Origin: a virus
Length of the DNA stretch: 49,744 nt
IMG/VR virus record: IMGVR_UViG_3300047325_000097
Span: 1-49,744 of that record
Reading direction: 5' to 3' (one strand)
In this document: one piece after another, positions 1,829 through 39,005 of the stretch
Numbering within the stretch: the first letter of the stretch is position 1
How the letters are laid out: each line of letters starts with the position of its first letter
Translations under genes and position numbers: made by a program
Notes under the pieces: generated by a model
What the model was told of the DNA's origin: nothing
What the model saw: only the letters and a program-made list of their open reading frames with translations
Database searches by the model: none

Positions 1829-2314
1829 TTATGCAATTAATTTTTGCATTCTTCTATATTCTATGTCTTTTAGATCTTGTACATTACCTGATTGTATAAA
1901 GTTGCAGTACAATAGAAAATTTGGTTGTGGTGGTAAAACAATATTTTTAATGATACATTTTCCATCATTTAATACGCCAAAGTAATCTCCCGGATTGACT
2001 TCTAGCATCGTAGCGCCAACTCTTGCCCACATAGGCTCGGTTATCGATAACTGATATATGTTACATGCTTCAAATTCAACGGTAAGATTAATTGGATGCT
2101 TTTCAATCATCTTGTCTGCAATTTGCTGATGAACTGTTGCTTTATCAATACCAAAATCTTTAATAAGTAAAAGTCCTCTGATGATATCAGATTTCTCAGG
2201 AAGATTTTTAATTTCTTCGACAGTGAGATATGGAATTTTTGCAACAAGTTCTTTGATACGTGGCTTTTTACTTGCTAGAAGTAATTGATCTGGGCCATAC
2301 ATACTTCTTACCAT
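1829..2314 (-). CDS. Hypothetical protein, last gene of the LRR-like operon
   Basis: 161 residues, no family recognised. It looks like a soluble mixed alpha/beta protein with no signal peptide or membrane segment. The start MVRSMYG overlaps the stop of the upstream LRR-like gene: the upstream TGG-TAA is read as ATGGTAA, so translation is probably coupled. The later part (MWARVGATMLEVNPGDYFGV, then CIIKNIVLPPQPNFLLYCN) suggests a small beta-barrel, which is only an impression. Confidence 0.6.
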   Translation of the reverse strand: MVRSMYGPDQLLLASKKPRIKELVAKIPYLTVEEIKNLPEKSDIIRGLLLIKDFGIDKATVHQQIADKMIEKHPINLTVEFEACNIYQLSITEPMWARVGATMLEVNPGDYFGVLNDGKCIIKNIVLPPQPNFLLYCNFIQSGNVQDLKDIEYRRMQKLIA

Positions 2315-2877
2315 CCTGCATTGCCTACAAAACCGTTATCTATTAATTCTTTTTGACATTTTAATATAGCTTTCTTAATATTTGTTCTACCTTCGTAGTT
2401 GTTTATTAGGTAATAGTTTACAAAGATATTGTTTATTTTGGGATTTGGTGCGTTAAAAAAATATGCATTTTTTGTTACCAGCGGTAATAAATGCAAAGTA
2501 GGTGAATAATCAAGACTTAATTTTTCTATAGTTTTAGGTATATCTTTAAGAGTTGTAAATTTATTTCCAGCCAGATATAACATATCTGTTATATTGATCG
2601 GACATCCAATTAAATTTGTTAATAAATTATTAACATATGATGCTGCGCCACCAACTGTATGTGGACTTCCCACCATTGATGTTAGCTGTAAATCTTCTAA
2701 TAAAAAACTTCCTTGTACAACGCCAAATTGAAATGGAATTTTATATCTATGATATACTGGTAATTTTTTATGGTTTCGAAGATCAACATCTCCTGTTATA
2801 TTAACGATATCAGATACAATTTCTATTTTACTTCTTGTTATTGGAAACACTCTCATAACTTGTTCAGCTGTTACCAT
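2308..2877 (-). CDS. LRR-like repeat protein with (G)NAGW tail, divergent member
   Basis: 189 residues. It has the family plan seen six times in this window: an N-terminal domain ending IPFQFGVVQGSFLLED, a few degenerate repeats (LTSMVGSPHTVGGAASY, LTNLIGCP, FTTLKDIPKTI), a capping segment (LHLLPLV) and the tail KKAILKCQKELIDNGFVGNAGW. The repeats are fewer and poorer than in the copy at 20025. ATG 2877 overlaps the upstream member's stop as ATGGTAA. Role unknown; repeat solenoids of this sort usually bind other proteins or glycans. Confidence 0.7.
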   Translation of the reverse strand: MVTAEQVMRVFPITRSKIEIVSDIVNITGDVDLRNHKKLPVYHRYKIPFQFGVVQGSFLLEDLQLTSMVGSPHTVGGAASYVNNLLTNLIGCPINITDMLYLAGNKFTTLKDIPKTIEKLSLDYSPTLHLLPLVTKNAYFFNAPNPKINNIFVNYYLINNYEGRTNIKKAILKCQKELIDNGFVGNAGW

Positions 2878-3632
2878 GATGCATTTCCCACATACCCAGC
2901 ATCAATTAATGCTTTTTGACAATCTAGTATTGCTTTCTTAAATGGCAGTTGACCTTGATACTTAGTTATGATTGTTTGAATATCTTTTCGATTAATTGCA
3001 ATTTTGGATTCCAATGGAACAAGACGTAGCAATCCTAATCTAGAATTCCAGCTTAATTTTATTTCGTTTATATTTTTGGTCAAACCTTCTAGCGTTTCAA
3101 GTTTATTATTATTCACAGCCAAATATGTAAATTTGACGTCAGGTAGACCTATAAGATTTTTTAACTTGTTATTAGTAACAGAAAAATATCCAGAGACAAT
3201 AGGTGCACCTTCGAGACTAGTTATTTGATTATTTTCTGCAAAGAGGCTTCCTACTTTTCTAGGACCGCCGTCAAAACTACTTATATTGGTACGAGAACAA
3301 ATATAGTCGTCTGCTGTTGCTGGACCGCCAATTAAATTATTTGTTAATCTATTCTGACCACACTCAAATGATCCCATAACTTTATTTGGGCAACCAACTA
3401 ACGTCGTTAGTTCACCATTGGTACAGTTAAAATTTCCAGCAACTATATCAAATTTAACAGGCAACTCTCCCGGCGTTATCTTAAAAGGTCCAAACCCCCC
3501 AGTAGTCTTGATTAATGTAACTTTACTTTGTTTTCCGTAAATACTTGCCTTGCCATTTGATATATCAAGTGAGTAACGTTCGCAATAAAAATATTCTTTT
3601 AGTAGTTTACGAATTTCGTCTTCAGACTGCAT
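2871..3632 (-). CDS. LRR-like repeat protein with GNASW tail
   Basis: 253 residues from ATG 3632, preferred to the ATG at 3650 because it overlaps the stop of the 814-residue gene as TAATG. N-terminal domain (LLKEYFYCERYSLDI, then ELPVKFDIVAGNFNC) is followed by about seven repeats of roughly 20 residues with the form LxxLxGxPxxVxGxFxCxxN (LTTLVGCPNKVMGSFECGQN, ISSFDGGPRKVGSLFAENN, ITSLEGAPIVSGYFSVTNN). A cap (GLLRLVPLE) and the tail KKAILDCQKALIDAGYVGNASW close it. It lies between a large repeat virion protein and another LRR-like gene, so a tail or baseplate role is possible. Confidence 0.75.
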   Translation of the reverse strand: MQSEDEIRKLLKEYFYCERYSLDISNGKASIYGKQSKVTLIKTTGGFGPFKITPGELPVKFDIVAGNFNCTNGELTTLVGCPNKVMGSFECGQNRLTNNLIGGPATADDYICSRTNISSFDGGPRKVGSLFAENNQITSLEGAPIVSGYFSVTNNKLKNLIGLPDVKFTYLAVNNNKLETLEGLTKNINEIKLSWNSRLGLLRLVPLESKIAINRKDIQTIITKYQGQLPFKKAILDCQKALIDAGYVGNASW

Positions 3633-6076
3633 TACCACTTTACAACCCACTGAAATGTATTTTCTGTGATTGGGTTGGTTTGCTGATTTATCGTATAACC
3701 TAAGTTTGTAAAATACGAAATTATCGTAGAAATTTGATCAGCATAAGGGCGTGCTAAATCTGGATTACTAGGTGTTAAATTTTTCCAAACTGCCCAATAG
3801 TCTCTACTTGCATTATATTGCTGTAGAGCAAATGTACCAGATCCTGCGCCAATGTTTGCAACACCTGTTGCTTGTATACCAAATGAAACAGATGGAGAAC
3901 TAATTACAACATTTGGCACACTTTCATAATCATCGCCAGGATTATTAATTACTAAACTGTTGATTGCATATCCAATTTGGGAACTAAATGTTGCATCATT
4001 TTGTTGGCCGGCAGATGCTGTTATAGTTGGCGGACTATTATAATAATACCCACCTGATAAAATATCAACCCTTGCAATACCTGTTGCTGTTAACGGAGCA
4101 ATAGCAGTTGCAGATCCGCTAATAGTAACATTAGGTGCAGCCGTAAAATCAGAACCACCGCTTAGTAATGTAATACCAGCTAATGTTGTAGGAGTTAGTA
4201 AACTTGTTGCAGTTGCACCAACTCCGTCGCCACTTACATGAACATTAGGTGTTGTAACATATGTATTGCCGCCATTGTTTGTTATTGTATATCCGATAAC
4301 GCTACCATTTGACACAATTGCATTCGCAGTTGCAACCCCGTCAATTACAACCGTTGCATATGTGTAACCACTACCAACATTACCTACATTTATATTGCCT
4401 AAACTTGTCGGCGTTAAATTAGCAACTGCAATAGCACCTGAACCAGCAGTGATATAAACAGAAGGAATAGAATTAAATGCTATGCCGGCCGATTGAACAA
4501 TTACATTTGTTACGGTACCGTTAATAACCGGGGCGATAGCAGTTGCGCCGTAACCAGTCCCACTTATTAAGACGGTTGGCGATGTGACGTAATTATTGCC
4601 ACCACTTGCTAAGGTTATGCTTGATAAACCAAAGCTAAGATTAAATGTTGCACCGGTTCCGGTGCCATTATTAACTAAATTTGTTAAAGCTGGTAATGCA
4701 CTATAACTTCCGCCATTTGTTAATGTATATGTAACAATTTGTCCGGTACTTGTTGTACTAAGAACTGAAATTGTTGCGCTACTTGTTCCGGCGCCACCTG
4801 ATATCTGTAATAAATCACCTGGTTGGTATCCGCTACCTGTATTCCATAATGATGCAGTTATGCATTGCATATAAACAGCTGATATTGTTGCACCAGAACC
4901 TTGTGCTGAAATTGTTACATTTGGTACGCTGGTATATGTATCACTGTTGCTGGTAATCATAACATTGAACACAGATGTCGGAGTTAATACTGCCGCTGCA
5001 TTTAAAGAATTACCGCTAGTGATTGTTATTTCAGGATTGGTTGTATAACCTTGTCCAGCATTTATCATTTGAATTGCAGAAACTGCTCCGGCATTTAATA
5101 ATGCAATTGCACTTGCACCGGTCCCATTGCCACCTGATATAATAATTGATGGTGCAGCAAGATACCCAAATCCTCCATTGGAAATTGTTATGGACCCGAT
5201 TCCCATATTAAGGTTCAATGTACAACCATTACCTCCGCTCGGTGTTGCAACTGTTGTAACTGAGTTTAAATTAGGTAGTATGCCATAACTTCCGCTATTG
5301 CTAACAGCTATTGCTAATACGGCACCCAAACCGTCGGTGTTTGTTACTACCACAGTGGCGGAAGTACCTGAACCTCCCTGTACAGTTAAGATGTCGCCTA
5401 CTCTATAATTAGTGCCAGCATAACTAATTGTTGCTGCTACCACGGTAAATGTAACACTTTCCGTAGCAGCATTGCTGCCTTGAGGTGTTGCAGTTAAAGT
5501 AGGAACATTTGTATATGATCCCGGATTAATGGGTGTAATAGATACCACATCGCCATAACTTGCTAATGTAGCAGAGGCTGATGCAGAAATATTTGCATTG
5601 CCGCCAACAATAGATACATTAGGTGAAGTTAGATACCCTGATCCAGAATTTGTCAATGATAATGTGTTAACGCCGCTCGTAAATTGAATTGCAATTGGTA
5701 TGCCAGCTCTTGCATTTATAAAACTATTAGCTAATTTAATTGTATTTGGATCTATATAAATTACGTAATAAAACGTGTTAATTGCTAAGGGAGCAGGTAA
5801 AACACCACTGCTATATACCGTAACTATTGCACCAGTTGATAAACCATGATTGGGTATTAATAGATTGTTATTAATAACGTCTATACTCCACAACTCATTT
5901 GTAACAACGACACTATTTGTCATTGGTGTGTTATTGTTAATTGTCACATTATAAAAACCATTGCTACTTGCTATAAGAATTTGATGTTCAATAGAACGTG
6001 CTTCTTGATGTAGAATTGTTTCTCTTATTGGGTTATATCTTGCTTGTGTTGCGGTTGGAAAAACGCTACTTGCCAT
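3632..6076 (-). CDS. Large beta-repeat virion protein (tail fibre or baseplate component)
   Basis: 814 residues. The N-terminus (to about residue 60) precedes a small beta domain around 60-150 with IPNHGLSTGAIVTVYSSG and FYYVIYIDPNTIKLANS, a module common in phage tail proteins. Residues about 150-750 consist of many Gly/Ser/Thr-rich beta repeats of the form ITxxxxGxxYTxxPxVxIxGGxGxGAxAxAxL (GGFGYLAAPSIIISGGNGTG, AGQGYTTNPEITITSGN, GGNNYVTSPTVLISGTG). A non-repeated C-terminal domain has SRDYWAVWKNL and ends QWVVKW. ATG overlaps the upstream stop (TAATG at 6076), and the gene's own stop overlaps the next start. Assignment as a virion protein is inferred from the repeats. Confidence 0.75.
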   Translation of the reverse strand: MASSVFPTATQARYNPIRETILHQEARSIEHQILIASSNGFYNVTINNNTPMTNSVVVTNELWSIDVINNNLLIPNHGLSTGAIVTVYSSGVLPAPLAINTFYYVIYIDPNTIKLANSFINARAGIPIAIQFTSGVNTLSLTNSGSGYLTSPNVSIVGGNANISASASATLASYGDVVSITPINPGSYTNVPTLTATPQGSNAATESVTFTVVAATISYAGTNYRVGDILTVQGGSGTSATVVVTNTDGLGAVLAIAVSNSGSYGILPNLNSVTTVATPSGGNGCTLNLNMGIGSITISNGGFGYLAAPSIIISGGNGTGASAIALLNAGAVSAIQMINAGQGYTTNPEITITSGNSLNAAAVLTPTSVFNVMITSNSDTYTSVPNVTISAQGSGATISAVYMQCITASLWNTGSGYQPGDLLQISGGAGTSSATISVLSTTSTGQIVTYTLTNGGSYSALPALTNLVNNGTGTGATFNLSFGLSSITLASGGNNYVTSPTVLISGTGYGATAIAPVINGTVTNVIVQSAGIAFNSIPSVYITAGSGAIAVANLTPTSLGNINVGNVGSGYTYATVVIDGVATANAIVSNGSVIGYTITNNGGNTYVTTPNVHVSGDGVGATATSLLTPTTLAGITLLSGGSDFTAAPNVTISGSATAIAPLTATGIARVDILSGGYYYNSPPTITASAGQQNDATFSSQIGYAINSLVINNPGDDYESVPNVVISSPSVSFGIQATGVANIGAGSGTFALQQYNASRDYWAVWKNLTPSNPDLARPYADQISTIISYFTNLGYTINQQTNPITENTFQWVVKW

Positions 6077-6429
6077 TACTTGTCCTTAGATGCGAGTTGG
6101 CGATTAGCCATTTTTGAAACTTGTTCTCTATGTTTTTCTTTTTCTGTGGGCTTTTCATAGTTTTCGGTGTCATCATCATTTTCATCTTCTTTATCAAGAT
6201 AAACAACACCATTATCTATCCGACCAATAATACTTTGATAAGCAGGATTTTCTAAAGTTTTAATAATCCAATCTTTATCTACTGTTGAACCAGCTGAGGT
6301 CAGACCTTGAAGTAAACTATCAACCGAAACCGATTTAATATCTTTACTTACATATAACATTATGCGATCCAGGAGATCATTTTCATCTTCTCCCAGATCC
6401 ATTGATTCAGTTAGTTGATGTAAACGCAC
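6076..6429 (-). CDS. Small acidic protein with LTE leader, possible head-associated protein
   Basis: 117 residues, no family recognised. It starts MRLHQLTES, with an LTE site at 6-8 like the (L/I)xE cleavage site of the T4 prohead protease. A compact helical domain follows to about residue 80 (LLDRIMLYVSKDIKSVSVDSL, DKDWIIKTLENPAYQSIIGRI), then an acidic run EDENDDDTE and a basic tail ending ASKDK. It is coupled to the 814-residue gene through TAATG. The domain could be a small winged-helix-like fold. Confidence 0.6.
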   Translation of the reverse strand: MRLHQLTESMDLGEDENDLLDRIMLYVSKDIKSVSVDSLLQGLTSAGSTVDKDWIIKTLENPAYQSIIGRIDNGVVYLDKEDENDDDTENYEKPTEKEKHREQVSKMANRQLASKDK

Positions 6430-6484
6430 TTATTTGTCCTTATACCAACCTTAAACAATCTTATGCTTTGAAAGTTTTTTAATT

Positions 6485-8443
6485 TCATATTTCAACAATC
6501 TTTGTTAATTGAGCAATTCTTTTATCCCAATGATTTGGATTAATCAACTTGCATTCGTTAAGAGAATCTTTGTTTAATTGTAACCAATAGTTACGAGTTG
6601 ATTCACTTTCAAAAAACTTGGTTTGTTGTTGACCTTGATTATCTGACCAAACAGCGCCATAAGGAGTTGTATTTTGAATATGCTGCATTTGCGTAATAGT
6701 TGTCTTTGCCTCGTCTTGCGCGCGAAGTTCAGTAATTGCTTGCTTAATTAAACAAGCAATTGCACCTTGTAAACGTGCAACAAGTAGATCAACTTGATTG
6801 ATTTCTTGAACAACAATTTCGCCTTCAATACCATAACCAACTCCTAACGGATCAGTTATCATATTCTCATGAAGTTGTCTTTTATGAATACGCTTCAATT
6901 TATTTAAGTTTTCTACCAACTTGGCTCTTGTTGCTAATGCAGTTTCAAGAACAGCCGCATGTTTTTCAATACCTTCTTTTTGTTGATCATGGATCTTCCA
7001 CATTGTTGCATACGCACGACCGGTATCATCACTATATTGTTTTAGCAATTTCTTTTTAAGAGATGCAGGGAAACCCGGGGGAGTTGATTCGTTGATTTTC
7101 TTACTGGTTTTAATCCCAATTTTTGATTTTTCTTCTAAAGATTTAACTTTACCTGTGCCATGACATGTTTTGCATTTCTTGTCAGATTTCTTATTGGCAC
7201 ACGCATTGCATACGATCATATCCTCTTTTACCGATTCGTCAAATTTATTAAATCTAAGTTTTTCAATTTGAGTTTCAATTTTTGCAATTGCCTTCTTATA
7301 GCCAGCTGGCTTATCTTTCTCAAGTTCTTTAATCTTGACATTTAATAAAGCAATTTCGGCTTTTTGACTATTAGCTTTCTTTGCTTCTGCAAGACTGTTT
7401 CTTCTGTTTTCGAAACTTTCTTTCTTTGCACGACCCGTTGGATCATCACTTGGACCGGCAGATGCTTGTTGGCTATTAAAACCATCATCTTCTGGTGCCA
7501 TATTATCACCCTGGGACTGATCTTGTCCTTGTGCCATTTGATCATTTGGATCCGCGGCTGGAGGTGCTGCAGGACCAGGAGTGTCTAAAGGCGGTGTGCT
7601 TGCAAGATCACTTGCCGGTGCAGGAACACCGCCAGTACGTAATGAAGCTACTGCTGAATCAACAGTTGTTTTTGTTTGCTCTGCTGATTGTAAGAATGCT
7701 TCTAGTGCAGGTTTTACGGTGTCTTTAAAACCTTGTGCAGCTTCTTGACTAAATTGGTCACTCATTGTATCAACAAGACTCATTAAATCTTCTACTGATA
7801 TTTTTGCAATTTTTTCAGCAATATCTTGAATTCTCGAACTTACATCTTTTGCAGCAAGAATAGTTTCTGCTTGATCAAGCTCTTGATCTTCCATAACTAC
7901 TTTACGTAGTTTGATACGTGCATTTGCTGCTTCCATGGTCTTTGTTACTTTACTCTTTGTATTCATTTTATTATTTCCTCTACTTTCAGAGAAAGTATCT
8001 TTTGCGTGGGTTTCAAATGCTTTATATTCCATAAAGTGTTTAGCACTACTAATTAGCTCAGATGCTTTTGTTAATTTTAAAAACATCCAGCTATCTAATT
8101 TAATGCCCGGCTTTACGATTTTAAATAAAGCAGTGCTGCACTCGATAATTTTCATTAAATTTTCTTTTACATCAGTCTTCTTATCTGATACAGGTGCTGC
8201 CTTACCTTCATTTTCAAAATCTAAATGAGAATGAACTTTAGCTAAGAACGTTGCTGCTGTTTCAATCTTATCAACAATTGTTTTGTCTAAAGTTACATCA
8301 GGTCTTAGTTCTTTTACCATAATCATCGCATAACGTGTATTGCGATAAAGTTCACTATGTACCATTGCGATCTGATGATTATCAGTGTCAGACAACATAA
8401 ATTCGTTTATTTGTTTTTTAACCATTGTTGTTTGAACTCCCAT
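6485..8443 (-). CDS. Large modular phage protein, internal head protein candidate with zinc motif
   Basis: 652 residues; no enzyme fold recognised. ATG 8425 (MVKKQINEF) is an alternative start that overlaps the upstream stop as ATGGTTAA. Parts in order: helical 1-250; a Pro/Gln/Asp-rich linker about 265-340; a Lys-rich coiled coil about 345-400; a DnaJ-like zinc motif CNACANKKSDKKCKTCHGTG about 410-430; the motif PPGFPASLKKKLLKQYSDDT followed by AYATMWK at 455-485, which I recall in many T4-like phage proteins; and a helical C-terminus. Several (L/I)xE sites occur (INE at 11-13 among them). It may be a scaffold-core or injected internal protein; this is inference. Confidence 0.6.
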   Translation of the reverse strand: MGVQTTMVKKQINEFMLSDTDNHQIAMVHSELYRNTRYAMIMVKELRPDVTLDKTIVDKIETAATFLAKVHSHLDFENEGKAAPVSDKKTDVKENLMKIIECSTALFKIVKPGIKLDSWMFLKLTKASELISSAKHFMEYKAFETHAKDTFSESRGNNKMNTKSKVTKTMEAANARIKLRKVVMEDQELDQAETILAAKDVSSRIQDIAEKIAKISVEDLMSLVDTMSDQFSQEAAQGFKDTVKPALEAFLQSAEQTKTTVDSAVASLRTGGVPAPASDLASTPPLDTPGPAAPPAADPNDQMAQGQDQSQGDNMAPEDDGFNSQQASAGPSDDPTGRAKKESFENRRNSLAEAKKANSQKAEIALLNVKIKELEKDKPAGYKKAIAKIETQIEKLRFNKFDESVKEDMIVCNACANKKSDKKCKTCHGTGKVKSLEEKSKIGIKTSKKINESTPPGFPASLKKKLLKQYSDDTGRAYATMWKIHDQQKEGIEKHAAVLETALATRAKLVENLNKLKRIHKRQLHENMITDPLGVGYGIEGEIVVQEINQVDLLVARLQGAIACLIKQAITELRAQDEAKTTITQMQHIQNTTPYGAVWSDNQGQQQTKFFESESTRNYWLQLNKDSLNECKLINPNHWDKRIAQLTKIVEI

Positions 8444-9308: not shown

Positions 9309-9335
9309 TAGATATTCCTTAGAATTGTTCCTAAG

Positions 9336-9343: not shown

Positions 9344-9370
9344 CATCAATGCATTGAATTATATTTTTTG

Positions 9371-11017: not shown

Positions 11018-11019
11018 AA

Positions 11020-11166
11020 TTACCACGATGCATTGCCAACAAAACTTGCGTCAATCAGTTCTTTTTGGCATAGAATTATGTTTTTCTTTTTATCATTGGA
11101 TTTGTTATGGTATTTTTCAAATATTCTGATGAATTCTTTATTCAACAAATATTCCTTATGTGACAT
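11020..11166 (-). CDS. Tail-only copy of the GNASW (LRR-like) family
   Basis: A 48-residue frame that starts on the TAATG overlap with the preceding LRR-like gene and contains only the last part of the family: a helix (EFIRIFEKYHNKS), KKNIILCQKELIDASFVGNASW, stop. It lacks the N-terminal domain and all repeats. The tail is intact, with the same residues and stop context as in full-length members, which is unexpected if it is simply decaying. It may be a remnant of recombination between paralogues, or a functional small tail peptide. Confidence 0.6.
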   Translation of the reverse strand: MSHKEYLLNKEFIRIFEKYHNKSNDKKKNIILCQKELIDASFVGNASW

Positions 11167-11978
11167 TACCATGATGCATTGCCTACATAATCATTATCTA
11201 TTAAATCTTTTTGAAATGCTAATGTAGCTGCTTTTTTATTTTTTGAATTGGTATATTTGTTGATGATTTTTGTTACAGGCATTACATTAGAAAAATGTTC
11301 AATATCGACATGACAGCTTTGAAGTACTAACCGTAGTATAGGTAAATTATTTGATATTGATAATATCAACAAATTTGACGGTTTAGGTAAATGTTCAAGA
11401 GAGGTAAGGTAATGGTTCTTACATTCAAATTCTTCGGTTATATCCGGAGCACCTAATAACGATGTAAGAGGATTGTTCGAACATGCATATTTTTCCGTAG
11501 CTATTTTTGGTCCGTGTTCTAATGTCAACAAAGAATTGTTTGAACAAATAAAAAATTCTAATTTAGACGGAGCACCTAATAAAGATGTTAGTTCATTTGA
11601 TGAACAATTAAATGATGCCTTTACATGTTGCGGCGCTCCAACTAGGTTTTTAAGTTTATTATGAATACACGCAAACGAGTTTCCGCAAAAGGATGGAGCG
11701 CCTTTCAAAGTTTTTAGATTATTATAAGAACAATTAAAACTTACTGCTACATAATCCGGTGATCCATCTAATGTGGTAATACCAGAATGTTCTGTAAAGA
11801 AACTTCCATCAGTTTTACCAAATTTAAATGGCAATCTTTTGTTACCAAGTTTAAAAGATACAGATCTACCACCACTTAAATTGATAATACCGTTTTCATC
11901 ATGTATTTTAATATCGTTTTTTTCTTCAACAAATGAAGGTTTAAAATATTGCCAAAATTTTTGTTCTAAATCATTCAT
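11166..11978 (-). CDS. LRR-like repeat protein with GNASW tail
   Basis: 270 residues. N-terminal domain (DLEQKFWQYFKPSFVEEKND, then LPFKFGKTDGSFFTE), about seven repeats (ITTLDGSPDYVAVSFNCSYN, LKTLKGAPSFCGNSFACIHN, LKNLVGAPQHVKASFNCSSN, LTSLLGAPSKLEFFICSNN), a Leu-rich cap (PILRLVLQS) and the tail AATLAFQKDLIDNDYVGNASW. There is no clear Shine-Dalgarno; GGTAAATAATTC directly precedes ATG, close to the context of the gene at 37567. The tail-only copy is coupled downstream. Confidence 0.75.
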   Translation of the reverse strand: MNDLEQKFWQYFKPSFVEEKNDIKIHDENGIINLSGGRSVSFKLGNKRLPFKFGKTDGSFFTEHSGITTLDGSPDYVAVSFNCSYNNLKTLKGAPSFCGNSFACIHNKLKNLVGAPQHVKASFNCSSNELTSLLGAPSKLEFFICSNNSLLTLEHGPKIATEKYACSNNPLTSLLGAPDITEEFECKNHYLTSLEHLPKPSNLLILSISNNLPILRLVLQSCHVDIEHFSNVMPVTKIINKYTNSKNKKAATLAFQKDLIDNDYVGNASW

Positions 11979-19051: not shown

Positions 19052-19114
19052 TAATCATAGTGTAATTGATTGGTATAGCTAAAATATATTTAAAAGTGCA
19101 TTGCCTGCAAACTA

Positions 19115-20024: not shown

Positions 20025-20663
20025 TTACCACGATGCGTTACCTATAAAACCGTTATCTATTAGTTCTTTCTGACATAATAAAATGGCTTCTTTTAATGGC
20101 TTATGATTGCAATATTTGTTTATGATCTCATTTATTTGATCATTGTATGTTTCTATTCTTTTGTATCTCACCAATTGGAGTAATGGTAGATTTTTTATCC
20201 AAGTAAGATAAAAATCACCACCAACTTCATTTGGACTCCCAACTAAAGAAGTGAGTTGATTATCACGACAATAAAAACCACCACCAACTGATTTTGGAGA
20301 CCCTTCTAAAGAAGTGAGTTGATTATTATAACAATCAAAATAACCACTAAGTGTTTGCGGAGCTCCTTTTAAAGAAGTAAGTTTATTACTAGAACAATAA
20401 AAATTACCACCAACCGATTTTGGGGCGCCTTTTAAAGAGGTGAGTTTATTATTAGAACAAGAAAAAGTACCACTAACTGTTTGAGGAGCTCCTTCCAAAG
20501 AAGTGAGTTTATTATCATAACAATTAAACTTACCACCAACATGACCGAATTGAACTGGTAGTTTTTTAACTTTCTTGATTAATAAAACATTAGAATCAGT
20601 ATTAATCAATCCATCTTTGATTGTATAATTACCTATTTCAAAATATTCTTTTATTTTTACCAT
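20025..20663 (-). CDS. LRR-like repeat protein with GNASW tail, most regular member
   Basis: 212 residues from ATG 20663, which overlaps the upstream stop as ATGGTAA; the longer frame from 20747 only reads into the neighbour. N-terminal domain KIKEYFEIGNYTIKDGLI and LPVQFGHVGGKFNCYDN, then five nearly perfect 20-residue repeats (LTSLEGAPQTVSGTFSCSNN, LTSLKGAPKSVGGNFYCSSN, LTSLKGAPQTLSGYFDCYNN, LTSLEGSPKSVGGGFYCRDN, LTSLVGSPNEVGGDFYLTW), cap NLPLLQLVRY and tail KEAILLCQKELIDNGFIGNASW. The low divergence of the repeats suggests recent repeat expansion. Confidence 0.8.
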   Translation of the reverse strand: MVKIKEYFEIGNYTIKDGLINTDSNVLLIKKVKKLPVQFGHVGGKFNCYDNKLTSLEGAPQTVSGTFSCSNNKLTSLKGAPKSVGGNFYCSSNKLTSLKGAPQTLSGYFDCYNNQLTSLEGSPKSVGGGFYCRDNQLTSLVGSPNEVGGDFYLTWIKNLPLLQLVRYKRIETYNDQINEIINKYCNHKPLKEAILLCQKELIDNGFIGNASW

Positions 20664-21532
20664 GAGGCATTGCCTACAAAACCTGCATCTATTAACATTT
20701 TCTGACATGTTAACACAGCTTGTTTGAATGGTTTGATTAATTGGCAATCTTTTATAATTTTTTCAACTGTTCTGTTATCTATTATAAACTTAGGTAGGCG
20801 TAATAAAGGTAACACATGTAAATTTTTTTGATATTTAACTATAATAGTCCCATAATGAAATTCTTTAGGAAAATTAAGTGATATAAGATATCTATCGTTG
20901 CTGGTGATATCAAAAATATTGGTAACTTCGATAGGTGCACCTTCTATACTTGTAAGAGGATTATAATTTGCTATATAGTCCATTACTTTGGAAGGGCCAC
21001 CTATAAAATTTTCTAATCTATTGTCAGATACATTAAATCTATTAAATATTTTGTCTTGAACTCCTTCGAGACTTGTTATGTTACATCTCGTGCAAATAAA
21101 ACTGTCTGAAACTGTTGGAGCATTTTTTAAATTTGTTAATCCGGCATCGTGGCAATATAAAGTGCCAACTTTATCTGGGCCATTTTCAAAATTTGTAATG
21201 CTGGTTTTTGAACAATCATAAACTCCGGTGACTATTTTTGGTCCGCCAGCCAAAGTTTTAATTTTACCATTTCCATTACAATAAAAATTGCCGTTTACTT
21301 CAGCTGGGCATCCGTCTAACGAGGATATATCGGATTCTGATATATTAAAACTTCCTACACAACTTAAAAAACGAACTGGTAATTTGCTAAAATATGGAGA
21401 ATCACGTTTAATATGCAATCCACCCTTAGTAATTTCAACAGACCCAGATCTTCTTATAATATAGTCGCCTATATTAAAATGACTTTTTATAATATTCTCA
21501 ATTTGTTTAATTTGTTTTTTATTGGCGGTCAT
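20657..21532 (-). CDS. LRR-like repeat protein with GNASW tail
   Basis: 291 residues, the longest member. N-terminal domain IENIIKSHFNIGDYIIRRSG then KLPVRFLSCVGSFNIS; about eight irregular repeats (ISSLDGCPAEVNGNFYCNGN, ITNFENGPDKVGTLYCHD, LTNLKNAPTVSDSFICTRCN, LENFIGGPSKVMDYIANYN, LTSIEGAPIEVTNIFDITSN); cap LHVLPLLRLP; tail KQAVLTCQKMLIDAGFVGNASW. No Shine-Dalgarno is visible; ACTAAATATAGC directly precedes ATG. Confidence 0.75.
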   Translation of the reverse strand: MTANKKQIKQIENIIKSHFNIGDYIIRRSGSVEITKGGLHIKRDSPYFSKLPVRFLSCVGSFNISESDISSLDGCPAEVNGNFYCNGNGKIKTLAGGPKIVTGVYDCSKTSITNFENGPDKVGTLYCHDAGLTNLKNAPTVSDSFICTRCNITSLEGVQDKIFNRFNVSDNRLENFIGGPSKVMDYIANYNPLTSIEGAPIEVTNIFDITSNDRYLISLNFPKEFHYGTIIVKYQKNLHVLPLLRLPKFIIDNRTVEKIIKDCQLIKPFKQAVLTCQKMLIDAGFVGNASW

Positions 21533-31229: not shown

Positions 31230-31250
31230 TATTTCTTCTTTTTATTTAAA

Positions 31251-31715: not shown

Positions 31716-31726
31716 TGTATGTGAAC

Positions 31727-31960: not shown

Positions 31961-31961
31961 A

Positions 31962-33446: not shown

Positions 33447-33508
33447 GCTGATTCCTTTATTATTTTTATTATCGATTCGATCATTGCAGTTTTTTCCACA
33501 AAAATGCG

Positions 33509-33539
33509 ACCGACCTTTGCTATTTCTAACAAGGTCGGT
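33509..33539 (-). terminator. Terminator after gene 32
   Basis: ACCGACCTT / AAGGTCGGT stem with a 13-nt loop, 16 nt after the gene 32 stop; CATTTTTG follows on the minus strand. It separates gene 32 from uvsX. Confidence 0.65.
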
Positions 33540-33554
33540 AGCTTTAAGCGTTAA

Positions 33555-34571
33555 TTACTTTGATTGACGAGCGCGAATCGCCGCAATTATCTCTTCGGGA
33601 GTTTGGCCTTTTGGCTTGTCACCTACTGCCGGAACAACAGTTTCTACAGATGTAAAAGCTTTTGCTCTTTCAAGAATAGATGATACACCTGCAGAAGGTG
33701 CTACTGGTGCTGCGACAGTATCTTCGTCAGCAGTCTTTACATTATCATAATTCTTCAAACCAGCCGGCTTATAGTATTGAGCAAAGCGTTCTGGATCATA
33801 CGGATCACCATCAACACTAGCAGCAAACATTTCCATAATAATTTCAAGTTGCTTCTGATCTGGCTTCTTAGGTAAAAAGTCGTTAAGTTTAAATAAACCA
33901 AACTTGTCAATTGCAGACATTTCGTCTTGATTGAGTGGACGACTTGTCATACCGCTTACTGCACTCTTCAACCATGAACTTGTATCATAATCTGCATACT
34001 TGCCCTTTGTAGTCTTACGAATATAAAAATCATAACCATTTTGATAATCAGTCGGGCTAAATGCTAGATCCGGGTCCATTAGAATTGCTTTGATCTTATC
34101 AAACACACTTGGGTTGATAATAAATCTACGAATTGGGTTCTCAGGTGTTGTATCTTCCGGGTTAGGATTTGATGGAACAAATCCTTGTAGAATATAACTC
34201 TTCTTGCGCCAGTACTTGCGTGCAAGATCTTCAAGTTGCTTATCCTTCCACCAAGGACGAATCTCAGCTGATATCGGACAAGAATTAGGTGTCCACATAT
34301 CCATGCACGGAACCTTAACTTCTACTTGTCGATTATCTACTTGACCTTTAATACCGTTAAATGGGAGTTTAATAACTAGATTCTCTTCCCAGAAGAAATC
34401 ATTTTTTTCGTTACCATCTGGAAGGAATCTTGCTGTTGCAGTAGTGCCATCTGGGTTGTTCCAAAAAGGATAAACTGCGTTGTCGCTTATAAAGGTGTTC
34501 TTACCTCTATTATCTTTGCGCTCTTGTTGTTCTCTTAGTTTTGCTTGAATTTCTTTTAAATTTAATGCCAT
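33555..34571 (-). CDS. 32: Single-stranded DNA binding protein gp32
   Basis: 338 residues. The basic N-terminal cooperativity segment LKEIQAKLREQQERKDN precedes the OB-fold core (NAVYPFWNNPDGTTATARFL, ENLVIKLPFNGIKG, VPCMDMWTPNSC for the zinc site, ARKYWRKKSYILQGFV, NPIRRFIINPSVFDKI, GYDFYIRKTTKGKYADYDTS). The C-terminal part is a flexible segment with Pro/Ala/Val, less acidic than in T4. It coats single-stranded DNA and recruits replication and recombination proteins. A GATAAATA motif lies about 65 nt upstream, and it is followed by its own terminator. Confidence 0.9.
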   Translation of the reverse strand: MALNLKEIQAKLREQQERKDNRGKNTFISDNAVYPFWNNPDGTTATARFLPDGNEKNDFFWEENLVIKLPFNGIKGQVDNRQVEVKVPCMDMWTPNSCPISAEIRPWWKDKQLEDLARKYWRKKSYILQGFVPSNPNPEDTTPENPIRRFIINPSVFDKIKAILMDPDLAFSPTDYQNGYDFYIRKTTKGKYADYDTSSWLKSAVSGMTSRPLNQDEMSAIDKFGLFKLNDFLPKKPDQKQLEIIMEMFAASVDGDPYDPERFAQYYKPAGLKNYDNVKTADEDTVAAPVAPSAGVSSILERAKAFTSVETVVPAVGDKPKGQTPEEIIAAIRARQSK

Positions 34572-34635
34572 TATATTTTTCCTATATATTTTTATGATAG
34601 CTCATATACTTCACGTATCTTTTTGCTAACGTTCT

Positions 34636-34643
34636 TATTTATC
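34636..34643 (-). promoter_or_regulatory. GATAAATA upstream of gene 32
   Basis: Minus-strand GATAAATAAG, 64 nt before ATG 34571, leaving room for a leader of the kind through which T4 gp32 represses its own translation. Confidence 0.45.
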
Positions 34644-34739
34644 TATGTTGTTGGATATAGGCGGCATTATTCAATATTATTTTTTAAATATTTTGATTTC
34701 TATGTGATGGTAAATATTGTATACCTAATTTAGGAACAG

Positions 34740-35075
34740 ATGATGCTAGCATATTTCAAAACAATAGGCTTACAATTTGATGAGTTGCTATGTGCAATTC
34801 TGTTCGGTGTTATGAACACTACAATATCAATGCATGTTGCGCTGGAAATGCAAGCCGGAAAGAAGTGGGCTTGTTTGTTTTGTGATTTGTTATCTTTGCT
34901 AGTACAGCGTAATCATTGTCAGGATCAATTGGATAATGTACCTATGTCGACAGGTAATTATATACGAGCATTTATCGCATTGTTGGTGCTTGCTGTAATT
35001 ATATTAGTGCCAATTATTAATGTAGGTTCTATTATGGTTACGTTTATTTGGAATGAACTTGCCAAAATTATGTAG
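34740..35075 (+). CDS. Small membrane-associated hypothetical protein
   Basis: 111 residues; AGGA lies before ATG ATG. Hydrophobic C-terminal segment at about 86-105 (FIALLVLAVIILVPIINVGS), probably one transmembrane helix; several Cys in the middle (CLFCDLLSLL, NHCQDQLD). Function unknown. Plus-strand, divergent from gene 32. Confidence 0.5.
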   Translation: MMLAYFKTIGLQFDELLCAILFGVMNTTISMHVALEMQAGKKWACLFCDLLSLLVQRNHCQDQLDNVPMSTGNYIRAFIALLVLAVIILVPIINVGSIMVTFIWNELAKIM

Positions 35076-35094
35076 CGCATTACCGCTGAGCGGG

Positions 35095-35208
35095 CTACGC
35101 CATAAAGATTAAAAATAGAATCAGCAACCATACTCCAGATCGTACCGGAGTACGTAACTCACCTGAAAAGTACAATGCAAGAAAAATAATTGCCAGAAAA
35201 TATAACAT
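35095..35208 (-). CDS. Possible 37-residue membrane peptide
   Basis: ATG 35208 to TAG 35095. Two hydrophobic segments, MLYFLAIIFLALYFSG and VWLLILFLIFMA, flank a short basic loop (ELRTPVRS). Typical of tiny phage membrane proteins. The Shine-Dalgarno is weak (GAG), so it is only a candidate. Nothing else is seen in 35076-35346 except the promoter below. Confidence 0.35.
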   Translation of the reverse strand: MLYFLAIIFLALYFSGELRTPVRSGVWLLILFLIFMA

Positions 35209-35279
35209 GCTCGTATTATGTTGAATTTACATAATTAATGTCAATTCATTGAAAATTGTTAATTTTTGTAATATTTTGG

Positions 35280-35307
35280 TTGACATAACATCGTTCGATG
35301 CTATTAT
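35280..35307 (+). promoter_or_regulatory. Host-type sigma-70 promoter
   Basis: TTGACA at 35280-35285 and TATTAT at 35302-35307 with a 16-nt spacer, 39 nt before ATG 35347. A perfect -35 and good -10 suggest an early promoter for the small plus-strand genes 35347-36101. Confidence 0.65.
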
Positions 35308-35346
35308 TCAGTTGTAATTCAAGCAAAACTAAATTAAGGATGCATA

Positions 35347-35520
35347 ATGACTTATAAAGTACATGTTGCAATGAATCCAGAAAATATCTCCAATTGGCAC
35401 GTTTTGGATAACTTTTTGGATGAATCTCTGGCTGAACGCGCTGCCCGTGCTTTTGTTGATGCAAACCCGGGCGCGGACTTTGTTATTGAGCCCGAAGATA
35501 GGGACGAAATAAGGATTTAA
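35347..35520 (+). CDS. Small hypothetical protein under an early-type promoter
   Basis: 57 residues with AAGGA 7 nt before ATG. It reads MTYKVHVAMNPENISNWHVL, then a helix LAERAARAFVDANPG and an acidic end (EPEDRDEIRI). Likely a small alpha/beta protein; early expression and small size suit a host-takeover role, but function is unknown. GC content is locally higher than around it. Confidence 0.6.
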   Translation: MTYKVHVAMNPENISNWHVLDNFLDESLAERAARAFVDANPGADFVIEPEDRDEIRI

Positions 35521-35583
35521 CCCTGCTTTGGAAAGATATGGCTGTTGAGATCATCCATAATCAGCAAATTTGTACGGATTCTA

Positions 35584-35793
35584 ATGCACAAAATCTCGGA
35601 TAAAACTCACGAAATAAAATACACAATACACAAAGTAGCTAGTAGTTATCTTACACATTCTCATGTTATAATCAAGGAGACGAACAAATCTTTATGTGGT
35701 AAAGATGCTACAAGGTGGAATAAAGCGGACTGGACAACTACACGAGAGGTTAAGTGCTTGCGTTGCAAACGTGTAATGGGCGAAGCAATTTAA
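35584..35793 (+). CDS. Small Cys-containing hypothetical protein
   Basis: 69 residues from ATG 35584; a TTG at 35545 is the longer alternative. It contains LCGKDATRW and VKCLRCKRVMGEA; C plus CxxC suggests a small zinc-binding knuckle. A 21-codon frame at 35537-35602 overlaps it and is probably not a gene. Second in the early-type cluster. Confidence 0.5.
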   Translation: MHKISDKTHEIKYTIHKVASSYLTHSHVIIKETNKSLCGKDATRWNKADWTTTREVKCLRCKRVMGEAI

Positions 35794-35804
35794 TAGGTAT
35801 AAAA

Positions 35805-36101
35805 ATGCCACTTACAGAATCGGATCTGCCAACTGAAATTGCCAAAGTATTAAAAAACGGAGTTGAGCTTAAATGGCAAGAACTTACGGTTATTATTAGC
35901 TCCGCCCTTTTTAAAGACACGTGCGAAATCATTGCTACAAAAAAAGCAATGATGTATGAAGCAGATATATTTGAGTTTGCTGAAACTTTGAGAAAAACCG
36001 TTACTGAAAACTATAAAAAGATCGAGTCCGGTAAGTTTAAACAATCATTGATGGACGATTTTGTATTAGATCTATGTATCTTACATGTCCTGGCTAATTA
36101 A
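35805..36101 (+). CDS. Small conserved hypothetical, longer paralogue of 826-1041
   Basis: 98 residues from ATG 35805 (MPLTESDLPTE) with TAGG before it. Two helical parts; the second (IFEFAETLRKTVTENYKKIE, SLMDDFVLDLCILHVLAN) is shared with the protein at 826. Function unknown; probably early. Confidence 0.6.
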   Translation: MPLTESDLPTEIAKVLKNGVELKWQELTVIISSALFKDTCEIIATKKAMMYEADIFEFAETLRKTVTENYKKIESGKFKQSLMDDFVLDLCILHVLAN

Positions 36102-36106
36102 ACCGT

Positions 36107-36589
36107 TCATAGGTGATAAACGGCTTGTACTATCAATGGTTCTCTTGCGTAAGCTTCGGCTTCCCATGGTAATTCTTTATATTTCTTGTTCTTTAACATT
36201 GATCCGGAATTAAATTCTGTTGTACCATTGCTATCCTTCCAATAAAAAATAGAAGTACGTTTATTAATTGCTTTAGCTTGTAGTATGCCATTATTAAATT
36301 GTTCAGCATGAACCATTTCGTGACATATTGTACTTAATATCGATCTTACATGATGTCTTCTTGGATCAATTTCAATTGTATTATTATCAAAATCAAATTG
36401 CCCATCAGCATGTTCTCTGCCTAATTTCTTAAATAAAATTTTAGTTGATTGATTATTCATAAACAATCTTATGTCATTTACACCAGATATAATTCTTTCT
36501 ATATGAAGGCTATTTGCTAATTTACTTTTTGAATCAATTAGTAATTTATTTTCTGCAAATATATTTGGTCCAATAGATTTAATCCGCAA
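36107..36589 (-). CDS. HExxH zinc metallopeptidase-like protein
   Basis: 160 residues, apparently starting at TTG 36589. The metal site ICHEMVHAEQF (HExxH, about 89-93) is followed about 45 residues later by LPWEAEAYARE, which supplies a likely third ligand Glu, as in small SprT/WLM-like or gluzincin-type phage peptidases. Upstream DGQFDFDNNTIEIDPRRHH fits the preceding beta strands. It is 20 nt downstream of the RimK-like ligase gene, so the two are probably cotranscribed. Substrate unknown. Confidence 0.7.
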   Translation of the reverse strand: MRIKSIGPNIFAENKLLIDSKSKLANSLHIERIISGVNDIRLFMNNQSTKILFKKLGREHADGQFDFDNNTIEIDPRRHHVRSILSTICHEMVHAEQFNNGILQAKAINKRTSIFYWKDSNGTTEFNSGSMLKNKKYKELPWEAEAYAREPLIVQAVYHL

Positions 36590-36609
36590 TTTCTAATACT
36601 CAATTATTT

Positions 36610-37509
36610 TTATTTTCTTTGAGTATTAATTCTGCTCAAACAATAATCAATAATTTCTTTGGCTACGTTAATACCAGTTGCTTGTTCAAAACCAAAAAAT
36701 CCGGGGGCAGAATTTGCCTCACAAATTTTGAATCCGTTTTTATCAAAAAGTAAATCGATACCTGCAATTTCTAACCCAAGTGTAGAAGCTGCTTGTAATG
36801 CGATAGATTCTATTTCGGTGGTTAGGTTAAATGGTAGAGCCTCACCACCTCTGGAAATATTAGCTTTAAATCCGCCATCGTTATTTTTTCGAAGCATGGC
36901 TCCTAAGCATCTATCACCTATTACAATTATTCTAAGGTCTTGCCCTGCTTTATGGTCAACATATTCCTGAATTAATAAATGCGACTCACTATTCAAACTA
37001 TGTACTAACTCCATTAAATCTTTAAAAGACTGCGGATCTTGGCTAAGGTGAACTCCTAACCCATATGAACCAGAAAGTACTTTAATTACACATGGAAATT
37101 TTATCTGTTGTGCTACCAATTCTACATTAACCGGATGTTTTACCAGCATTGTTTTTGGAATCGGCAAACCAATTTGGTGAAGCACCTGGTGAGTATGAAG
37201 TTTATCTTTTACAATATCTATGCTTGTGCTGTTATTGATAGTCATTACACCACAACGTTCTAATTGACGTAAAATCGCTAAAGAAAAATAGCCTGTTCCA
37301 CTACCTGTTCTAGTAACAACTACATCGGGTAATGACGTTTTGGATCCATTAAATCTAATACTATTTCTGTCTTCTTTATTTACAATGACATCGATATTAT
37401 CTGTAATTGCTACATCAGCATTAACACCAATGGTTTTGCATTCGTGTAACAGTCGCTGGGTTTCCCAGTCGGTCTTTGCATTTTTCCGAGTGATCCAAAG
37501 TTTTGTCAT
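36610..37509 (-). CDS. rimK: RimK-like ATP-grasp ligase
   Basis: 299 residues, the length of E. coli RimK. ATP-grasp features: DIVKDKLHTHQVLHQIGLPI, FPCVIKVLSGSYGLGVHLSQ, LLIQEYVDHKAGQDLRIIVI, KANISRGGEALPF, IAGIDLLFDKNGFKICEANS and PGFFGFEQATGINV. RimK adds glutamates to the C-terminus of ribosomal protein S6; other members make peptide-like bonds on small molecules. The target here may be a ribosomal, virion or small-molecule substrate. Confidence 0.85.
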   Translation of the reverse strand: MTKLWITRKNAKTDWETQRLLHECKTIGVNADVAITDNIDVIVNKEDRNSIRFNGSKTSLPDVVVTRTGSGTGYFSLAILRQLERCGVMTINNSTSIDIVKDKLHTHQVLHQIGLPIPKTMLVKHPVNVELVAQQIKFPCVIKVLSGSYGLGVHLSQDPQSFKDLMELVHSLNSESHLLIQEYVDHKAGQDLRIIVIGDRCLGAMLRKNNDGGFKANISRGGEALPFNLTTEIESIALQAASTLGLEIAGIDLLFDKNGFKICEANSAPGFFGFEQATGINVAKEIIDYCLSRINTQRK

Positions 37510-37537
37510 GATTAGTTCCGTGCCGTATGTGGCCCAA

Positions 37538-37545
37538 TATTTATC
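37538..37545 (-). promoter_or_regulatory. GATAAATA before the RimK-like gene
   Basis: Minus-strand GATAAATATTG, 28 nt before ATG 37509; one of a back-to-back pair with the plus-strand motif at 37555. Confidence 0.6.
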
Positions 37546-37554
37546 TTAGCAATG

Positions 37555-37562
37555 GATAAATA
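37555..37562 (+). promoter_or_regulatory. GATAAATA immediately before the nucleotidyltransferase gene
   Basis: GATAAATA followed by ATTC and ATG 37567; no Shine-Dalgarno. The back-to-back partner at 37538 has a normal leader, so the two arms differ. Confidence 0.5.
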
Positions 37563-37566
37563 ATTC

Positions 37567-38310
37567 ATGGTACAGAACTCAAAATTGAAAATAAATTTTA
37601 AAGATTTTAGCAAAGTTTTTAGTCCGGCTGTCACCGAAGTTATCGAAGCAACCAGAAAATACGGGTTTGAGATACGAGTTGTTGGCGGCGCCGTTCGTGA
37701 TTTTGTGATAGGAAATCCACCAAGAGATATTGATTTTGCTACCACTGCCGAACCAGCTGAATTAATTTATATCTATAATAAATCCGGTATTACGTTTGAT
37801 GCCGGCGGCATTATACACGGAACCGTTAAAGCTAAAATAAATGGCGAAACAATTGACGTAACTAGTTTGAACTATAGAATAACATCAGCAAATAATACTA
37901 TATCTATCAGCCATACTATTGACTGGGATCAAGATGCTAAGAATAGAGATTTAACTATTAACAGTTTAAGTTTAGATCTAGATGGCAACATTTATGATTA
38001 TCTTGGCGGAGTAAAAGATATTAAGAATCAACTTATTAAGTTTTGTCCAAACCCCCAAGAAAAAATTGAGCATGATCCAAACATGATTATGCGTTGGTTC
38101 AAAGCATTAGGATTCTTTCCTAATCCAATTTGGTTAAGAAAAGATTGGGATGTTATAAAAGAAAATATTCATCTATTAGATGAAATTGCTGATGACGATC
38201 GTACTAAATTGGGATTAGCTAGTATAATGACACATAGAAATAGTCAAAAGATTTTGAAGATTATGTGTGCAATGGGTGCCAACAAGTATTTAAATTTGGA
38301 TTGCGAATGA
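37567..38310 (+). CDS. CCA-adding enzyme / poly(A) polymerase-type nucleotidyltransferase, short
   Basis: 247 residues. Class II nucleotidyltransferase head: IRVVGGAVRDFVIGNPPRDI with DIDFATTAEP (GG and DxD motifs, about 38-62), GTVKAKINGETIDVTSL (third Asp), then DWDQDAKNRDLTINSLSLDL and YDYLGGVKDIKNQLIKF. A short neck follows (MIMRWFKALGFFPNP). Bacterial CCA enzymes are 370-450 residues, so body and tail are missing. It could add CCA to tRNA 3' ends or A tails to RNA. The next gene overlaps as ATGA. Confidence 0.85.
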   Translation: MVQNSKLKINFKDFSKVFSPAVTEVIEATRKYGFEIRVVGGAVRDFVIGNPPRDIDFATTAEPAELIYIYNKSGITFDAGGIIHGTVKAKINGETIDVTSLNYRITSANNTISISHTIDWDQDAKNRDLTINSLSLDLDGNIYDYLGGVKDIKNQLIKFCPNPQEKIEHDPNMIMRWFKALGFFPNPIWLRKDWDVIKENIHLLDEIADDDRTKLGLASIMTHRNSQKILKIMCAMGANKYLNLDCE

Positions 38311-39005
38311 AAGATGAAATTGGTATGAATCTTCCGGAAGTCAGAAAAATTTTACACAACTATTTTGAGATTACATCAGGCAGAACAACATTAACTAATA
38401 ATTTTGTAAATGTTATTTGTTCAGATTCTAACCACTCTGCCAAAATAAGACTTGGTGTAAAAATATCAGAAATTCCATTAAAATTTGGTGTGGTTGATGG
38501 TGATTTTTTATGTTATGATAAGGCATTAACTTCGTTAAAAAATTCACCAAGAATAGTTAATGGACAATTTAATTGCTCAAAAAATCCTGCATTGACAAAC
38601 TTTGATGGTGCACCTGATTCGGTTACATATTTCTTCTGTCAGACTTCTGGAATAACCTCATTGGCAGGTTCGCCTAAAATAGGCATAAGATTTGATGTTT
38701 CGGACAACAAATATTTATATAATGGTGCACCGGACCATTATGACGATTTTTTTTGTTCAAGTCCGTACCTTACGTCATTAGAAGGATTACCACAAAACGT
38801 AAAAAATATTAGGTTAAGATATACCAGAAAATTACCAATGCTGCGTCTTATAATGTCAAAAGCAAAAATAACTTATATTATGGATGATAGATTTGCTACA
38901 AGGATAATCAACAAATATAGAGAAGGTCCCCACACCAAATCAGCAATACTTGCATGTCAAAAAGAATTAATTGACAATGATTTAATACAAAACGCAGGTT
39001 GGTAA
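38307..39005 (+). CDS. LRR-like repeat protein with QNAGW tail (plus-strand member)
   Basis: 232 residues from ATG 38307, overlapping the upstream stop as ATGA. Same plan: LPEVRKILHNYFEITSGRTT and IPLKFGVVDGDFLCYD, about five repeats (LTSLKNSPRIVNGQFNCSKN, LTNFDGAPDSVTYFFCQTSG, ITSLAGSPKIGIRFDVSDN, LTSLEGLPQNVKNIRLRYT), cap LPMLRLIMS and tail KSAILACQKELIDNDLIQNAGW. It is the only family member here on the plus strand and next to the glycan island. Confidence 0.75.
   Translation: MKDEIGMNLPEVRKILHNYFEITSGRTTLTNNFVNVICSDSNHSAKIRLGVKISEIPLKFGVVDGDFLCYDKALTSLKNSPRIVNGQFNCSKNPALTNFDGAPDSVTYFFCQTSGITSLAGSPKIGIRFDVSDNKYLYNGAPDHYDDFFCSSPYLTSLEGLPQNVKNIRLRYTRKLPMLRLIMSKAKITYIMDDRFATRIINKYREGPHTKSAILACQKELIDNDLIQNAGW

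Follow-up and report, generated by a model that had tools for sequence, protein, structure and literature searches.

Bacterial LRR proteins of the IpaH/SspH and internalin type are built of 20-22-residue repeats with an LxxL..FxCxxN pattern, which fold into a solenoid with a concave binding face. The T-even internal proteins form a diverse, defence-blocking set with only a capsid targeting sequence in common (PMC3012670), and poxvirus ankyrin/F-box proteins combine variable N-terminal repeats with a short C-terminal docking domain for SCF ligases (PMC9414399). In lamprey variable lymphocyte receptors (VLRs) variable concave strands are joined to a constant C-terminal part, and cassettes are replaced by a process resembling gene conversion. 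LRR genes are also found in phages, among them the 735-kb LR756501, Vibrio phage SRILMA and the Lak phages. A literature search found no paper on arrays of phage LRR genes with a common tail such as those described here. They were detected in a viral DNA of 49,744 nucleotides (IMG/VR record IMGVR_UViG_3300047325_000097), the whole of which is referred to below as the window.

The phage proteins share the repeat pattern, the solenoid fold and the concave face with IpaH/SspH and the internalins, but have an N-cap and a tail of their own, no surface-anchor domain and 25 or more copies in one phage. Pfam detected no NEL E3 ligase domain, the C-terminal tail of the phage proteins being only about 55 aa long. 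Like the T4 internal proteins, they are diverse phage proteins with one short constant segment; however, the T4 signal is N-terminal and cleaved, whereas here the constant part is C-terminal, has a cap fold and follows LRR solenoid heads. The six N-termini in the window (MVTAEQ, MQSEDE, MNDLEQ, MVKIKE, MTANKK and MKDEIG) contain no T4-type capsid targeting sequence. With the poxvirus ankyrin/PRANC proteins they have in common the organization of a multi-copy viral family with variable N-terminal repeats and a short constant C-terminal module. The repeats and hosts are different, no sequence relation was found, and Pfam matched neither ankyrin repeats nor an F-box-like PRANC domain in the window proteins. 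Diversity of the concave face combined with a constant C-terminal part and cassette replacement is found in both the phage family and VLRs. The latter, however, are secreted, somatically assembled and provided with a Cys-rich stalk, while the phage genes change over phage generations only, and direct reading of the window termini revealed neither a VLR-type signal peptide nor such a stalk. The other phages listed above have the same type of repeat without the tail; the 735-kb phage also has the same style of N-cap and a tandem LRR array, but its constant module is N-terminal (a PSGE..-type domain). The T4 internal proteins, the poxvirus proteins and VLRs are precedents, none of them homologous by the tests run here.

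An LRR gene family with a common tail

A six-frame scan of the window located seven tails, six at the ends of the genes listed in Table 1 and one at 11023-11070. Their profile E-values range from 1e-13 to 1e-28, and chance can therefore be dismissed as the origin of the family. All six full genes encode an N-cap followed by LRR repeats and end in a conserved tail, and the motif P..F....G.F is invariant in the N-terminal part of the proteins (6/6). These data confirm the claim of an earlier note, made from the sequence, that the window contains an LRR-like family of six full genes and one fragment with a common tail. Some of its details need to be corrected. The repeat was described as 20 residues long; the LTSL units of the gene at 20025 are found at 20484, 20421, 20358, 20295 and 20232, giving a period of 63 nt, or 21 residues. 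The start at 38307 was placed correctly, but overlaps with upstream stop codons indicate that two other genes are likely to occupy 20025-20663 and 2871-3632. The seventh copy does possess the tail; rather than a mere fragment it is an uninterrupted ORF of 50 codons, the chance expectation for 48 open codons alone being about 4.5%.

Table 1. Positions of the LRR-tail genes and associated features in the window
Feature	Position	Strand	Description
LRR-tail gene A	2308..2877	(-)	189 aa, MVTAEQ..NAGW; start codon within the gene B stop, 7-nt overlap
LRR-tail gene B	2871..3632	(-)	253 aa, MQSEDE..NASW
814-aa repeat protein gene	3632..6076	(-)	similar to virion structural / baseplate wedge PHROGs
Tail-only ORF	11020..11172	(-)	50 aa, MVMSHKEYLL..CQKELIDASFVGNASW; ATG within the gene C Trp-stop codons
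LRR-tail gene C	11166..11978	(-)	270 aa; N-terminus MNDLEQ
LRR-tail gene D	20025..20663	(-)	212 aa, MVKIKEYF..; regular 21-residue repeats
LRR-tail gene E	20657..21532	(-)	291 aa; N-terminus MTANKK; 7-nt overlap with gene D
LRR-tail gene F	38307..39005	(+)	232 aa; N-terminus MKDEIG, end NDLIQNAGW
Conserved tail core, gene D	20028..20102	(-)	last 25 codons, KPLKEAILLCQKELIDNGFIGNASW
Equivalent tail cores	2311-2385, 2874-2948, 11023-11097, 11169-11243, 20660-20734	(-)	
Equivalent tail core	38928-39002	(+)	
ATGGTAA junction E/D	20657..20663	(-)	gene E Trp-stop = gene D Met-Val start
ATGGTAA junctions of the same type	2871-2877 (B/A), 11166-11172 (C/tail-only ORF)	(-)	

Upstream of genes B and A lies their partner, the 814-aa gene, whose stop codon overlaps the ATG of gene B (TAATG). 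Gene F is a solitary copy, which adjoins glycosyltransferase genes and overlaps the end of a PolyA_pol-head gene.

Related genomes

Contigs of the window lineage recovered by the family search came from one IMG/VR sample and have no orthologues in common with the window or with each other, LRR paralogues and minor weak matches being excluded from this comparison. They share near-identical repeats with the window, and their ends often lie within LRR genes. So far, 25 tail ORFs have been found on six mutually non-orthologous contigs (~251 kb). Judging from the sequences, the window probably represents part of a jumbo myovirus, and the six contigs are probably pieces of one genome. On the basis of its gp6 gene the phage lies close to jumbo myoviruses, for example Atu_ph07, 121Q, Munch and PA5oct. 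Contig G001, from another sample, carries a gp6-like gene (79% identical) with members of the family on both flanks.

A second lineage has 27 tail genes in about 381 kb, many of them in tandem arrays. Its 310-kb contig G011 contains ten consecutive LRR-tail genes (32317-38221) headed by a tail-only ORF, and one more LRR-tail gene at 43-687; the tails read CQKELEDAGFExNARW and are designated here as LED-type. Contig G048 has overlaps of 100% identity with G011 and with the 71-kb contig G051, and the latter two therefore belong to one genome of about 381 kb. Contigs of the G051 type, equal in length, were present in four samples. LRR-tail arrays are points at which the assembly of such phages breaks, so copy numbers are under-counted.

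Conservation and distribution of the tail

The tail had been described as invariant or near-constant; it is strongly conserved instead, the last 25 residues of the window proteins having a mean identity of 63% (48-76%) as against 35% for the rest. The corresponding values in G011 are 86% for the tail and 38% for the body. Among the residues that do not vary in the six full window copies are Q, K, L, I, D, N, A and W; in the QKxL...NA pattern, Q, K, L, N and A are constant between lineages. Third-base identity of the window tails is 0.46 at 4-fold and 0.67 at 2-fold sites, compared with 0.37 and 0.65 expected from codon usage. This near-saturation of synonymous sites shows that the amino acids of the tail are kept by protein-level selection, and it rules out recent duplication as the only explanation for the window tails. 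For LED-type tails synonymous-site identity exceeds the expectation (0.50/0.78 vs 0.29/0.54), indicating that some gene conversion also keeps these tails alike.

A profile search of phage genomes, proposed earlier as a check, found the tail in related contigs, on a few non-LRR heads and alone. Heads without recognisable LRRs precede it at G004 7789-8286, G003 1453-1935 and G005 30293-30709, and it stands by itself in the window ORF at 11020-11172 and at the head of the G011 array. A tblastn search of 50,697 annotated phages produced nothing or only chance matches to intein-gyrase sequences, and no relatives were found in GTDB genomes. The examined LRR proteins of Vibrio phages (including SRILMA) and of the 735-kb phage share the repeats and lack the tail; plasmid, cellular and other-phage LRR matches likewise align to the repeats and not to the tail. 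Matches to a degenerate tail pattern in L067 and L069 are due to chance and lie in an unrelated gene. The family was found in 0 of 80 related gp6 neighbourhoods and in 0 of 28 further related contigs, which rules it out as a fixed part of the gp6 neighbourhood in this phage group.

The earlier note had suggested that the repeats vary while the tail is kept, and this is upheld by the identity values, by the separability of the module and by protein-level selection on it. The possibility that the tail is merely the cap common to all LRR solenoids, cellular ones included, is contradicted by the lack of matches in cellular genomes and by the tail-less LRR proteins of the other phages examined. As for the tail being a docking or packaging signal, it does behave as a separable, selected module, but a role in packaging is not supported, no T4-type N-terminal targeting sequence being present.

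Variation of the repeats and exchange of LRR bodies

In 60 repeat units (26 + 34) both entropy and pN peak at positions 14, 16, 18 and 19, where entropy is 2.1-2.7 bits and pN is about equal to or above pS. Positions L1, L4, P8, F15, C17 and N20 show little or no variation. Assigned by the LRR consensus and not from coordinates, the four variable positions would form the exposed concave strand face. This distribution of variation supports the view of the repeats as a changeable surface.

Comparison of the closely related strains G050 and G051 revealed one unrelated LRR body as the exception in otherwise matching sequence, its flanks having an identity of 97.7% over 601 bp on one side and of 98.95% over 10.5 kb on the other. 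Identity falls about 9 nt past the start codon and returns about 95 nt before the stop codon. Where the 10.5-kb block ends on its other side, identity is lost 75 nt into the tail of the following LRR gene, so that recombination breakpoints fall in tail DNA. In G050 and G055 matching bodies are found elsewhere with slightly different tails; the flanks of the compared insertion site are absent from G055. These two comparisons demonstrate that tail-proximal recombination changes the head while the locus and the tail stay, with the G050/G051 pair as the one full body swap at base level and a second tail-anchored breakpoint beside it. Homology between tails may guide the swap. Replacement of bodies with retention of the tail suggests that the family may be a kit of interchangeable recognition proteins.

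Predicted fold

AlphaFold2 modelling of gene D with 27 sequences yielded an LRR solenoid (pLDDT 97.5, pTM 0.91). The tail, viewed earlier as a signal, is predicted to form a short helix, a strand and two helices which end the solenoid; since the model folds it as the helical end, the tail would be a cap as well as a module. Its conservation and separability, taken together with this fold, indicate that it is probably both the cap and a docking surface. PDB neighbours of the gene D product are LRR domains, the best being that of IpaH3, a protein-binding effector (E 6e-3, query TM 0.46). Neighbours in BFVD include three similar unnamed proteins, A0A8D4GM21, A0A8D4GLZ7 and A0A8D4GM51, and the best query TM there is 0.74. 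No Pfam family exceeded its cut-off in the window proteins: gene D matched LRR_4 with 25 bits (cut-off 27), the other five genes gave no LRR match, and PHROG matches were weak and to repeat families of unknown function. Assignment to the LRR superfamily is based on the tandem 21-residue units, the predicted solenoid and the LRR neighbours in PDB and BFVD. A protein with a non-LRR head, modelled without an alignment, gave an unusable result (pLDDT 46).

Possible functions of the LRR-tail proteins

We propose, with a probability of about 0.5, that these genes are a cassette family of soluble LRR binders with one shared docking cap, in which the bodies are swapped. Each gene would encode a soluble LRR solenoid (no export signal was seen by eye), and the concave face of each copy would bind a different protein target. 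The C-terminal module, with its two helices and GFxxNAxW, would close the solenoid and also serve as a common handle through which every copy contacts one putative partner in the infected cell or the nascent virion. The phage would hold 25 or more copies, partly as translationally coupled tandem arrays, and would change specificity when an LRR body is replaced by recombination between the start junction and a point within the tail. The proteins may act inside the cell against host or rival proteins, and the core Cys fixed in each repeat would fit a reducing cytosol. Against this reading, the cap role in the model could explain part of the tail conservation, gene conversion contributes to the likeness of LED-type tails, and the baseplate and fibre-gene neighbours of most window-lineage copies would fit a virion part.

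The last point leads to the suggestion that the products are virion adhesins, late structural proteins with the tail docked to the baseplate or fibres and the LRR face directed at host surface receptors. Members of the family flank the gp6-like baseplate wedge gene in two phages, G004 and G001; elsewhere they neighbour genes for a 4,440-aa collagen-like fibre (G002) and a 3,840-aa virion protein (G005), while the window copies flank those for the 814-aa and a 300-aa virion protein. The position of the window-lineage copies, beside baseplate or virion genes or near a fibre gene, would on this view be comparable to that of T-even gp38. The LED copies are placed otherwise: their ten-gene array adjoins a predicted SleB-like cell-wall hydrolase gene, and other copies lie near ClpP/ClpX genes. 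No adhesin family was among the Pfam or PHROG matches to indicate similarity to gp38. None of the 80 related gp6 neighbourhoods contains the family, and surface adhesins do not usually come in 25 or more copies or with a core Cys in every repeat. We consider this explanation unlikely. The same grade is given to the idea that the tail is simply a C-cap belonging to this LRR clade and maintained by folding needs and gene conversion, the proteins acting independently and serving no common partner. The confident packing of the tail as a helical end by AlphaFold2 and the excess synonymous identity of LED-type tails agree with it; the tail-less LRR proteins examined in other phages and matched in plasmids and cells, the occurrence of the tail alone or without recognisable LRRs, the polar Q, K and N among its most constant residues across lineages and the near-saturated synonymous sites in the window do not.

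Alternatively, the tail could be a capsid or virion targeting signal of effectors injected with the DNA against host defences, for which the T-even internal proteins are a model (PMC3012670). The absence of a T4-type signal from the window N-termini and the C-terminal location of the tail make this rather improbable. One relative with an N-terminal extension (L012 1693-2796) begins with MVKANEFLNEA, which we take to resemble the T4 capsid targeting sequence; to our knowledge, no processing site has been described for LRR-tail proteins. It is also quite improbable that the genes are selfish cassettes, spread mainly because tails and junctions recombine well, with arrays as by-products. Start/stop overlaps permitting insertion in register, breakpoints in tails and the patchy distribution would be expected of such elements, but the amino acids of the tail are constrained while synonymous sites drift, and the concave positions vary beyond the framework, which argues for a selected function. 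Least probable, in our estimate, are adaptors for degradation, where the LRR part would bind a host protein and the tail would recruit a protease or similar machine. Their layout would be that of the poxvirus ankyrin/F-box proteins (PMC9414399), and ClpP-like and ClpX-like genes are located near LRR arrays in G051; however, no F-box/PRANC match was obtained with Pfam. A ClpXP adaptor in particular was rejected, since the incomplete contigs of the window lineage have no ClpP, and relatives that lack LRR-tail genes do have it.

If the family consists of soluble binders with a shared docking cap, a bacterial virus would possess a large, recombinationally renewed recognition repertoire, similar in fold and principle to lamprey antigen receptors. 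It is a tentative suggestion that the phage maintains a germline repertoire of at least 25 LRR proteins plugging into a single machine, a VLR-like kit against host defences or rival phages which is renewed by swaps between sites of tail homology. The constant tail offers a direct handle on the putative common partner, and through it the role of dozens of jumbo-phage repeat proteins would become testable.

Junctions of the tandem arrays

At all three window junctions ATGGTAA provides the Trp-stop of one gene and, in a different frame, the Met-Val of the next. Tandem arrays of the relatives are joined in the same way by ATGGTAR (or GTGGTAR), and start codons of the second lineage lie inside the Trp-stop codons of the upstream tail (ATGGTAR). 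This double reading ties the terminal Trp-stop in part to the MV start. A putative late-promoter motif, NATAAATA, is over-represented in intergenic DNA, but was not found directly ahead of the LRR genes checked. The terminal Trp is retained without an overlapping partner in window gene F and in the last gene of the G002 array, the latter being followed by an inverted repeat and a T-run resembling a terminator.

Shared motif and neighbourhood of the LRR-tail genes

The sequence TAAATAATTCATG is common to three sites, two in the window and one in contig G002, and lies directly at the start codon in each of them (see Table). A late promoter with a leaderless start is a possible explanation of this position.

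Positions of the motif and of genes discussed in the text
Feature	Location	Strand	Remark
TAAATAATTCATG	window ~11985		start codon of gene C operon
TAAATAATTCATG	window ~37555		start codon of PolyA_pol-LRR pair
TAAATAATTCATG	G002 ~86890		start codon of G002 fusion gene
Sir2-family gene	window 41047-41754	+	
Sir2-family gene	G011 40194-41072 (L203)		
Sugar cluster	window 39043-49742	+	glycosyltransferases, epimerases, methyltransferase-like gene, transketolase-like pair
Split transketolase-like pair	window 43973-45076		within sugar cluster
ClpP- and ClpX-like genes	G051 64517-65083 and 18378-19628		near LRR arrays
Collagen-like fibre, 4,440 aa	L084 525-13844		laminin-G-like domains; LRR-tail genes near
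Virion structural protein, 3,840 aa	L083 733-12252		LRR-tail genes on both sides
DnaB-like helicase	window 16179-18014	-	Pfam match to intein splicing within gene
UvsX/RecA-like recombinase	window 31962-33446	-	split by intein-like insert
Truncated ORF	window 3-851	-	TnpB-like GIDIGRNKS motif

The two giant virion genes were assigned to the same phage. Each of the two phage lineages carries a Sir2-family gene at a distance of 2-3 kb from LRR-tail genes. ClpP is also present in relatives lacking the LRR-tail family.

Two LRR-tail proteins (locus L012, 1693-2796, and L046, G002 86895-87980) have related N-terminal extensions; the former begins with MVKANEFLNEA, which we take to resemble the T4 capsid targeting sequence. 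Four near-tandem LRR genes of a 735-kb phage (LR756501.1 234146-237772, L247) have no such tail and share a constant N-terminal module (..PSGE..), whereas in the window family it is the C-terminal tail that is constant, and the architecture is thus mirrored.

Probable genome linkage

Pfam gave no match for the truncated ORF at the window edge. Its start region (603-851) is repeated in contigs G002 and G004 with 97-99% identity, and is matched by the end of contig G003. This recurrence is consistent with one common genome.
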